Assembly (NCBI GenBank): GCA_014382805.1
Contig: JACNIZ010000241.1
Span: 1 to 32,159, forward strand
Direction: 5' to 3'
DNA length: 32,159 bases
Source of the DNA: Planctomycetota bacterium
GTDB taxonomy: Bacteria; Planctomycetota; UBA1135
In this document: positions 24,970-28,192 of the stretch, piece by piece
Position numbering within the stretch: position 1 is the stretch's first letter
Layout of the letters: every line of letters begins with the position of its first letter
The notes under the pieces: model-generated
Told to the model about the DNA's origin: nothing
Seen by the model: only the letters and a program-made list of their open reading frames with translations
Databases searched by the model: none
Translations under genes and position numbers: made by a program

Positions 24970-25200
24970 GTCCTCGACTAGTTTACTTTTGGATATATTT
25001 AGGGGTTTGATGAAGCTGAAACTTTAAGCCGGACAACCCTTCATTGAAAGGAACAACCTGCACGTTGAACTATGTTTATCATTCACCTCTCTCCCAATGG
25101 TAGTTTTGGTACCCGGACCACTACACCAATGCCTCGATCGCAACGCCTACCAACTTGTCCCTCACATCCAATCAACCCGAAACCTACCCGTGGTATATCC

Positions 25201-25285
25201 GTCGTGTCGGCCGTTGCACGCCGGGGCGCATCAGGTCGAGCGTAGCGACCTGTCTAAGCCGCCGGCGTGCAACGGCCGACACGAC
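25201..25285. repeat. Long nested inverted repeat (24-bp perfect arms plus inner 7-bp stem)
   Basis: GTCGTGTCGGCCGTTGCACGCCGG (25201-25224) is the exact reverse complement of 25262-25285. The loop contains CAGGTCG (25232-25238) pairing with CGACCTG (25246-25252). Confidence 0.97.
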
Positions 25286-25294
25286 ACATAAACC

Positions 25295-25373: not shown

Positions 25374-27038
25374 TTAGAAGCCCATGCCGCCCATTCCACC
25401 CATACCGCCCATGCCACCCATTGGGTCGCCGCCGGCACCCGGAGGCATGGCTGAGGCAGGCTGTGGAACTTCGGAAACCAGGGCTTCGGTGGTGAGCAGC
25501 AAGGTTGCGACGGAAGCGGCGTTTTGCAGAGCAATGCGCACAACTTTGGTCGGGTCGATGATGCCAGACTTGAACAAGTCTTCGTAAACACCAGTGGCAG
25601 CGTTGTAGCCTTTGTTGAAAGCCTTTTCGTTACGCACTTTTTCGACGATGACTGCACCGTCCAAGCCAGCGTTAACAGCAATCTGACGCAGTGGCGCTTC
25701 TAGCGCGCGCATCACGATTTGGGCACCGAACAACTGGTCACCCTTCAGGTCCAACTTAGCGATTTCGACTTGAGCGCGAATCAGTGAAGTGCCGCCACCA
25801 GGCAGAATGCCTTCTTCGGAAGCAGCGCGAACAGCAGCCAACGCATCGTCGACGCGGTCCTTCTTCTCTTTCATCTCAGCTTCGGTAGCAGCGCCTACAT
25901 TCAGCACCGCAACACCGCCAGCCAACTTGGCTAAACGCTCGAGCAATTTCTCTTTGTCGTAATCCGAAGTGGTGCGCTCGATTTCGTTGCGCAACTGCTC
26001 CATACGGCCATTGATCTTGTCCTGAGTGCCCGCACCTTCGATGATCGTGGTGTCATCCTTGGTGATGATGACGCGCTTGGCGCGACCCAAATCCTCGATG
26101 GTTGCGGTCTCCAACTTGTGACCCATTTCTTCCATTAAAGCGGTACCACCAGTCAAGGTCGCGATGTCTTCCATCATCGCCTTACGACGATCACCGAAGC
26201 CCGGAGCCTTCACTGCACAGCACTTGAAGATACCGCGCAAACGGTTAACTACCAAAGTAGCCAGCGCTTCGCCTTCAATATCCTCAGCCATCACCAACAG
26301 CGGCTTGCCACTCTTGGCAACCTGCTCCAGCAGCGGCAACATGTCGCGAATGTTGGAAATCTTCTTCTCGAAGATCAGCACGTAAGCGTCTTCCAGCTCA
26401 CACTCCAAAGTTTCCGCGTTGGTGGCGAAGTGCGGCGACAAGTAACCCTTATCGAACTGCATGCCTTTGACCTCTTCGATGGTAGTTTCCAACGAGCGGC
26501 CTTCTTCCACGGTGATGACTCCGTCGGCGCCGACTTTGTCCCAAGCTTCCGCCAACTTTTCGCCAATTTCGACGTCGTTGTTGGCAGCAACTGTTGCCAC
26601 CTGCTGAATTTCGTCGCGACCTTTCACCGGCTTCGACTTATCGCCGAGGAACTTGGTGACGGCAGCAACTGCAGCTTCAATGCCGCGCTTTAACTCAACC
26701 GGGTTTGCCCCAGCGGTTACGTTGCGCAGACCTTCGACGAAAATCGCCTCAGCCAACACGGTGGCGGTAGTGGTGCCGTCGCCAGCAACGTCGGAAGTTT
26801 TGGAGCTGACCTGACGGACCAGCTGGGCGCCAATGTTTTCGTAACTGTTTGATAGCTCGATTTCGCGAGCAACCGAAACGCCGTCCTTAGTCACCATCGG
26901 GGTGCCAAAGGATTTTTCGATGATTACGTTGCGACCGCGTGGGCCGAGCGTAACTTTGACCGCAGCGGCAAGCTTTTTAACACCCATCCGGATGTGCTCG
27001 CGAGCCTCTTGGTCAAAAGAGATTTTTTTAACTGCCAT
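25374..27038 (-). CDS. groEL: 60 kDa chaperonin GroEL
   Basis: [51 protein letters not shown] and C-terminal GGM repeats ([19 protein letters not shown]). Confidence 0.99.
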
Positions 27039-27062: not shown

Positions 27063-27371
27063 TTAACCAATGATTCCAAGGATGTCGTCCTCGGACATGA
27101 TGAGGTATTCCTGACCGTCCCACTCGACTTCGGTGCCGGCGTAGGAGGTGAAAAGCACGCGGTTGCCTGCAGCGACAGTGAACTCGGTGCGGCGACCGTC
27201 CTCCAGCAAGCGACCTTCGCCCAATGCGATGACCTTGCCTTCAGCTGGCTTTTCTTTAGCGGAATCAGGTAGCACAATGCCACCAGCGGAGATGTCGGCA
27301 GCTTCAGTGCGCTGCACGAGTACTTTGTCCGCGAGCGGACGGATGGCGACTTTTTTGGCGGTTTTAGCCAT
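27063..27371 (-). CDS. groES: 10 kDa co-chaperonin GroES
   Basis: IRPLADKVLVQRTEAADISAGGIVLPDSAKEKPAEGKVIALG...AGTEVEWDGQEYLIMSEDDILGII. Precedes groEL. Confidence 0.99.
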   Translation of the reverse strand: MAKTAKKVAIRPLADKVLVQRTEAADISAGGIVLPDSAKEKPAEGKVIALGEGRLLEDGRRTEFTVAAGNRVLFTSYAGTEVEWDGQEYLIMSEDDILGIIG

Positions 27372-27385
27372 GGTTTGCATTTGCC

Positions 27386-27754
27386 TTAGTGGCGATTCGA
27401 GATGATTTGTTCGACGGTAATGCGCAGGATTTCCGTCGGGACGGGTTTGCGCAACATGGTGATGGCACCCAACTCCAGCGCAGCCGTTTCAATGGCCGTG
27501 GAGGGGTTACCCGTCATCAGGATGGACGGCACAATGACGCCAGCGCTTTTGAGATGGCCAAGGATCTGGATGCCGGTCAAACTTGGCATGTGTACATCAA
27601 GTACGGTCAGATCAAAGGTGGTCTGCAGCAGCAGGCGCAGTGCCTGGGAGCCGTCGGCGGCCGTCAATACCTCGAAACCTGGGCGATGCAGCGTTTGCAC
27701 TATGGCTTGGCGGCAGTCGTCCTGATCGTCGGCTACGAGGATGCGGAACACCAT
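27386..27754 (-). CDS. Receiver-only (CheY-like) response regulator
   Basis: ILVADDQDD, phospho-acceptor LTVLDVHMP, ILMTGN, LRKPV. No output domain. Stop lies 14 nt before groES. Confidence 0.95.
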   Translation of the reverse strand: MVFRILVADDQDDCRQAIVQTLHRPGFEVLTAADGSQALRLLLQTTFDLTVLDVHMPSLTGIQILGHLKSAGVIVPSILMTGNPSTAIETAALELGAITMLRKPVPTEILRITVEQIISNRH

Positions 27755-27775
27755 GGGATTTCCCTGCCGTCTTAG

Positions 27776-27792
27776 AGCAAGCCGCGTGCCAA
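27776..27792 (-). promoter_or_regulatory. Candidate sigma-54 (RpoN) -24/-12 promoter
   Basis: Minus strand TTGGCACGCGGCTTGCT matches YTGGCACG-N4-TTGCW with GG-N10-GC spacing, 21 nt upstream of the response regulator ATG. Confidence 0.82.
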
Positions 27793-27821
27793 GCCAAAAC
27801 TGCCTTTTTGGCGCACTTTTT

Positions 27822-27844
27822 CGGCATTTGCGGCAGAAATGCCG
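27822..27844. promoter_or_regulatory. Inverted repeat, candidate activator binding site
   Basis: CGGCATTT-GCGGCAG-AAATGCCG: perfect 8-bp arms upstream of the sigma-54-like element, with no T-run on either side. Confidence 0.5.
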
Positions 27845-27847
27845 GGG

Positions 27848-28192
27848 TTACAGCATTGCGTCGTCTTCGTCCTCGCCCTCGTCGCCGAAATCGGGGGTGC
27901 CTTCGAACATTTCTTCCTCTTCGTCGAGGAATTCGCCCTCGGTATCGGCGCGTAATTCGCCCTCGGCGAGCACCGAAGCGTCCTTCCAGGCGTCGACTTG
28001 GATGGTGAGCTGCTCGATTTCCATCTCGCCGCCGCACAGCAAGCAAATGCCGCCACCCTCCAGAGATTCCAAGGTCTCGGAGAAAGTGGCCATTTCATAG
28101 CCGCAGTGCGGGCAGGTCGGGGACGCGGAGCTCATCGGTTGGGGGAAGGCTAGATCCTGGCAGACGTCGCCAAAATCGCTGGACGGCCACAT
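27848..28192 (-). CDS. Small zinc-ribbon-like protein with strongly acidic C-terminus
   Basis: CPHCGYEMATF...CLLCGGEMEIEQ (two CxxC pairs) and tail DEEEEMFEGTPDFGDEGEDEDDAML. Start either 28192 (TAATG overlap with upstream gene) or 28135. Confidence 0.72.
   Translation of the reverse strand: MWPSSDFGDVCQDLAFPQPMSSASPTCPHCGYEMATFSETLESLEGGGICLLCGGEMEIEQLTIQVDAWKDASVLAEGELRADTEGEFLDEEEEMFEGTPDFGDEGEDEDDAML

Follow-up and report, generated by a model that had tools for sequence, protein, structure and literature searches.

The chaperonin operon of this planctomycete, consisting of a receiver gene followed by groES and groEL, probably belongs to a sigma-54 proteostasis regulon together with dnaK and clpB, driven by the kinase-activator pair encoded next to dnaK. 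We assign this reading a probability of roughly 0.78 from comparisons of sequence. The window (the whole stretch of 32,159 nt that was analyzed) is contig C72 of a 4.17-Mb draft planctomycete genome, whose close named relatives are Planctomycetota MAGs.

The chaperonin operon and its sigma-54 box

The operon comprises three genes, listed here in the order of transcription:

27386..27754, minus strand, receiver gene, encoding a single-domain response regulator (Pfam PF00072), first gene of the operon
27063..27380, minus strand, groES (Pfam PF00166)
25374..27038, minus strand, groEL, with a GGM-rich tail (Pfam PF00118)

The true start of groES is probably at 27371 (MAKTAKK), because the alignment of the relatives begins at MAKTAKK. 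In the receiver, the residues for phosphorylation are kept, namely the acidic pair, the phospho-Asp, the Thr/Ser and the Lys. The gene 5′ of the receiver (27848-28192) encodes a small protein with two CXXC motifs and an acidic tail, PDFGDEGEDEDD, and in many genomes of the family, the coding sequence before the promoter likewise ends in an acidic stretch. At the other end of the operon, 3′ of groEL (25200-25290), the GC-rich stretch CGTGTCGGCCGTTGCACGCCGG is followed by its own reverse complement 50 nt further on; the two could form a large hairpin, which is possibly a terminator or a mobile repeat.

The gap 5′ of the receiver gene is 93 nt long (27755-27847) and contains the following elements:

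27776..27792, minus strand, sigma-54 -24/-12 box TTGGCACGCGGCTTGCT, exact match with GG-N10-GC spacing, kept 5′ of groES across order and phylum
27765, minus strand, predicted transcription start (+1), placed from the -12 element and leaving an 11-nt leader
27793..27812, minus strand, inverted repeat GCCAAAA-N6-TTTTGGC, overlapping the degenerate activator site
27800..27814, minus strand, degenerate candidate activator site GCGCCAAAAAGGCAG, with 9/12 dyad positions, ending 7 bp before the box and centered at approx. -42
27822..27844, minus strand, inverted repeat CGGCATTT-N7-AAATGCCG, directly after the stop of the upstream gene, lacking a T-run and borderline against shuffles

The preliminary description had proposed a sigma-54-like promoter in this gap, and the exact box at 27792-27776 bears this out, with the GG at 27790-27789 and the GC at 27778-27777 of the minus strand giving the GG-N10-GC spacing. 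The exact pattern TGGCAC-N5-TTGC occurs only once in the window (0.2 copies expected), and the chance of an exact box on the minus strand within the 93-nt gap is approx. 0.00025. Over the whole genome, we counted 29 exact matches, and 578 with one mismatch versus 242 for the reversed pattern. The genome also encodes RpoN itself (PF00309 match, 52 bits, contig C215), whose absence had been named as grounds for discarding the promoter.

To assess conservation, upstream DNA was read at groES loci of the 25 nearest relatives (same family) and of 75 other members of the order, and box counts were restricted to loci with enough upstream sequence, using a threshold score of at least 13.2 of 15.7. A box reaching this threshold is present in 81 of 89 loci of the order, i.e., 23/25 in the family (window included) and 58/64 in the rest, mostly 400 to 760 nt upstream of groES. 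The box of one of these loci (L072) is probably spurious, since it lies inside the receiver gene. As a control, we used 20 paralogous groES loci, mainly second copies, of the same genomes; two of them have a box reaching the threshold. A receiver gene stands 5′ of sigma-54 groES in 86/89 loci of the order versus 0/20 paralogous loci. Having no receiver and almost no boxes, the paralogous groES genes were rejected as additional members of the regulon. Among the named loci, most of those in Phycisphaerae, Sedimentisphaerales, Kuenenia and Poly30 have the box, as do most Scalindua loci. Thus, the GG and GC dinucleotides, for which conservation had been proposed as a check, are kept in orthologous promoters across order and phylum and are missing at nearly all paralogous groES genes.

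Pfam also identifies a receiver in the position between box and groES in Kuenenia and Phycisphaerae (L187:2568-2981, L205:2470-2883). The first, N-terminal acidic residues of these receivers look degenerate, so they are perhaps pseudo-receivers. At some of the named loci, the box is found at -75 to -140 of groES and no receiver gene intervenes.

A conserved dyad shared with dnaK and clpB

Both inverted repeats of the preliminary description are present in the gap where it had placed them. As drawn, however, they are not a conserved element and were rejected as a conserved operator; what is kept among relatives is a different dyad, partly overlapping GCCAAAA-N6-TTTTGGC. Shuffled sequences contain at least two repeats with arms of 7 nt or longer in 3.6% of cases, so that on their own the two repeats of the gap are only borderline. 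RNA hairpins or a terminator were likewise rejected, as there is no T-run and the fold energy of the repeats is no better than that of shuffled sequence (z 0.18).

The conserved dyad, CTGCCA-N3-TGGCAG, was found by anchoring 128 groES loci on the sigma-54 box. Upstream of the box, it reaches a score of at least 10 in 116 of these loci versus 2.5% of shuffles (first-order Markov). In the window itself, a score as high as that of GCGCCAAAAAGGCAG occurs at 0.08% of positions, and its 7-bp distance to the box matches the perfect sites at the groESL loci of relatives and at dnaK of the same genome. In ten groESL loci, exactly 7 bp separate the dyad from the 17-nt box, placing the center of the dyad near -42. 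In other lineages, the distance to the box ranges from 38 to 164 bp, and two copies of the dyad frequently follow each other at intervals of 40, 33 or 30 bp. As for helical phasing, a suggestive pattern was seen for clpB alone and not for groES, and it was not relied on as proof of activation.

Perfect copies of the dyad (CTGCCR-N3-YGGCAG) occur only twice in the whole genome, both beside exact sigma-54 boxes:

Contig C176, before dnaK, perfect dyad and exact box with 7-bp spacing, the box approx. 50 nt from the ATG
Contig C83, before clpB, perfect dyad and exact box with 81-bp spacing

In approximately 30 relatives examined for each gene, dnaK and clpB mostly carry box and dyad as well. Searching 26 genomes of the family with the composite pattern of dyad plus box resulted in 27 matches and none for the reversed control. 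All 27 precede either dnaK or receiver-groESL as assigned by coordinates; for two matches at contig ends, the assignment was made from identity to a groESL promoter (G018:C53) and from the neighboring activator gene (G022:C196), respectively. In a phylum-wide sample, box and dyad are recognizable at only some dnaK genes. The other exact sigma-54 boxes of the genome were rejected as regulon members; apart from dnaK and clpB, they have no good dyad nearby and yield weak candidates only. Taken together, a sigma-54 promoter with a shared activator site is very probable for these operons.

The clpB gene of this genome contains an in-frame TGA after GGQLTEAV, beyond which the frame resumes (G000:C83, L246:3380-3397, minus strand). 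This may reflect either an error of the assembly or a genuine interruption of the gene.

The candidate activator and competing explanations

A search for sigma-54 activators, which had been suggested along with control of the chaperonin operon by an enhancer-binding protein, detected approximately ten strong activator genes in the genome, and such control appears well supported by the comparisons. Directly 5′ of dnaK, a 241-aa histidine kinase is encoded (HisKA and HATPase domains, no recognized sensor), followed by the activator gene:

Contig C176, 3613-2153, NtrC-type activator P0010, 486 aa, with REC, AAA and Fis HTH domains (PF00072, PF00158, PF02954) and a GAFTGA motif

Accordingly equipped with a sigma-54 interaction domain, the GAFTGA loop and a DNA-binding domain (Fis HTH), P0010 has orthologs adjoining dnaK in the majority of family genomes and also in several further families, and a close relative stands beside dnaK at approx. 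10 of the 27 loci read in the phylum sample. Kinase and activator genes stay paired in families f5 and f6, but at a distance from dnaK. In both sampled genomes of genus g12 (drafts 73 and 80% complete; loci L011, L019, L264, L279), no box or dyad at groES and dnaK, no receiver and no close ortholog of the activator were found, an apparent co-loss of all four elements. Because the pair is linked to dnaK and a close ortholog of its activator is missing together with the sites in g12, we consider the pair likely to be the regulator acting on the dyad.

The usual regulators of heat-shock genes were searched for in 61 genomes of the order. No hrcA was detected in any of them (control genomes were positive in 7 of 14 cases), and no CIRCE element, allowing up to five mismatches, was found upstream of groES in the loci of the order scanned, in agreement with the preliminary description, which had seen none at this operon. 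HrcA-CIRCE control was rejected on these grounds. Nor was RpoH (sigma-32) control supported, as none of the 61 genomes had a match above the curated cut-off of the proteobacterial model and scores were only those expected of other sigma-70 family members.

Based on these results, we propose that a sigma-54 (RpoN) promoter would drive receiver-groES-groEL as part of one regulon that also includes dnaK and clpB. The dnaK-linked NtrC-family activator, once phosphorylated, would bind CTGCCA-N3-TGGCAG upstream of each box and open the complex of sigma-54 and polymerase at the expense of ATP. The signal may be stress, with heat or unfolded protein being plausible, and it might be received by DnaK binding the kinase. 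The receiver of the groESL operon could feed back on the kinase by competing for phosphate, a plausible role as feedback element or phosphate sink. Doubtful, and put forward only tentatively, is a wider scheme of two feedback loops, in which much of Planctomycetota would have transferred its core chaperone genes (groESL, dnaK, clpB) to a single sigma-54 activator pair, free DnaK would control the sensorless kinase and the groESL receiver would drain its phosphate, with no heat-shock sigma factor or repressor involved.

Several findings count against the main reading and lend themselves to other explanations. The dyad of the window is degenerate, and with its center near -42 it lies closer than is usual for a sigma-54 activator site. 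It could be the operator of a repressor which, similar to HrcA, blocks polymerase at approx. -42 of an otherwise real promoter, and the dyad often abutting the -24 box (7 bp) in the family of the window is typical of steric repression. Yet the remote and often tandem dyads elsewhere fit an enhancer better, a Fis-type activator gene adjoins dnaK, and HrcA is absent, making a repressor quite improbable. The position of the pair away from dnaK in f5 and f6, which keep their dyads, and the presence of approximately ten other activators also allow for a real regulon and dyad served by another sigma-54 activator, with the dnaK-linked pair as a bystander. We regard this as unlikely, given that several families of the phylum show the same linkage to dnaK and that genus g12 lacks sites and close activator ortholog alike.

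Finally, the box could be a chance match or a minor promoter, with the chaperonin produced mainly from a sigma-70-type promoter. The genome does contain 29 exact boxes, and tandem promoters are known, e.g., at hrcA-grpE of Chlamydia (PMC8762339), but the conservation throughout the phylum, the near-absence at paralogous loci and the shared dyad rule out chance, and this explanation is highly improbable. A second, housekeeping promoter at the operon is possible. The reading of a sigma-54 regulon driven by the dnaK-linked pair is also compatible with data on Rhodopirellula baltica without being supported by them: rpoN itself is not heat-induced there, and the study, in which rpoH, rpoE and rpoN were all unresponsive to heat shock, suggested a different cascade (PMC2754498).

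Known systems and implications

Prediction of a sigma-54 promoter at chaperone genes is not new in itself. A computational study from 2025 in PLoS One predicted such promoters at chaperone groups of Planctomycetota and Bacteroidota, with enrichment at the GroEL, GroES, DnaK, GrpE, DnaJ and IbpA groups in Planctomycetia and less so in Phycisphaerae (PMC12316311). Unlike the present analysis, the passages of that study considered here contain no activator site, activator, receiver-groESL operon or test for HrcA and RpoH. The shared site, the candidate activator and the link to the receiver appear to be new; no description of dyad, activator pair or receiver link was found in the literature searched, which included only a minority of subscription journals.

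The groESL3 operon of Bradyrhizobium japonicum is tied to nitrogen fixation via NifA. As in the present proposal, the groESL genes are transcribed from an RpoN promoter that an enhancer-binding protein controls, in this case NifA (PMC4842269). In contrast to the operon described here, groESL3 is one of several groESL copies and is not known to belong to a regulon of chaperone genes including dnaK and clpB. In Myxococcus xanthus, HsfA is of the NtrC type, and we know of no chaperone dyad shared by targets of HsfA-HsfB. This two-component system likewise activates a heat-shock gene, lonD, but its known target is one protease gene, and it belongs to another phylum (Ueki and Inouye, 2002, cited in PMC9548883). 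In the sister phylum, the hrcA-grpE-dnaK operon of Chlamydia also has a sigma-54 promoter, together with a pair of the AtoS-AtoC type; Chlamydia differs in keeping HrcA and a main sigma-66 promoter, and its rpoN falls on heat shock (PMC8762339). HrcA-CIRCE in Bacillus and Caulobacter and RpoH in Escherichia coli similarly control groESL and dnaK as a set, but neither regulator was found in the 61 genomes of the order.

Sigma-54 promoters show strict, ATP-dependent on/off behavior, a logic which would be unusual for essential chaperones. Given a defined site, a defined candidate pair of kinase and activator and three operons as targets, chaperone control without HrcA or RpoH becomes directly testable in cultured species. 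As a sigma-54 promoter and an activator site are common to groESL, dnaK and clpB, the comparison suggests that this lineage may run its protein-repair response via a two-component activator rather than, as is usual, via a heat-shock sigma factor or a repressor.
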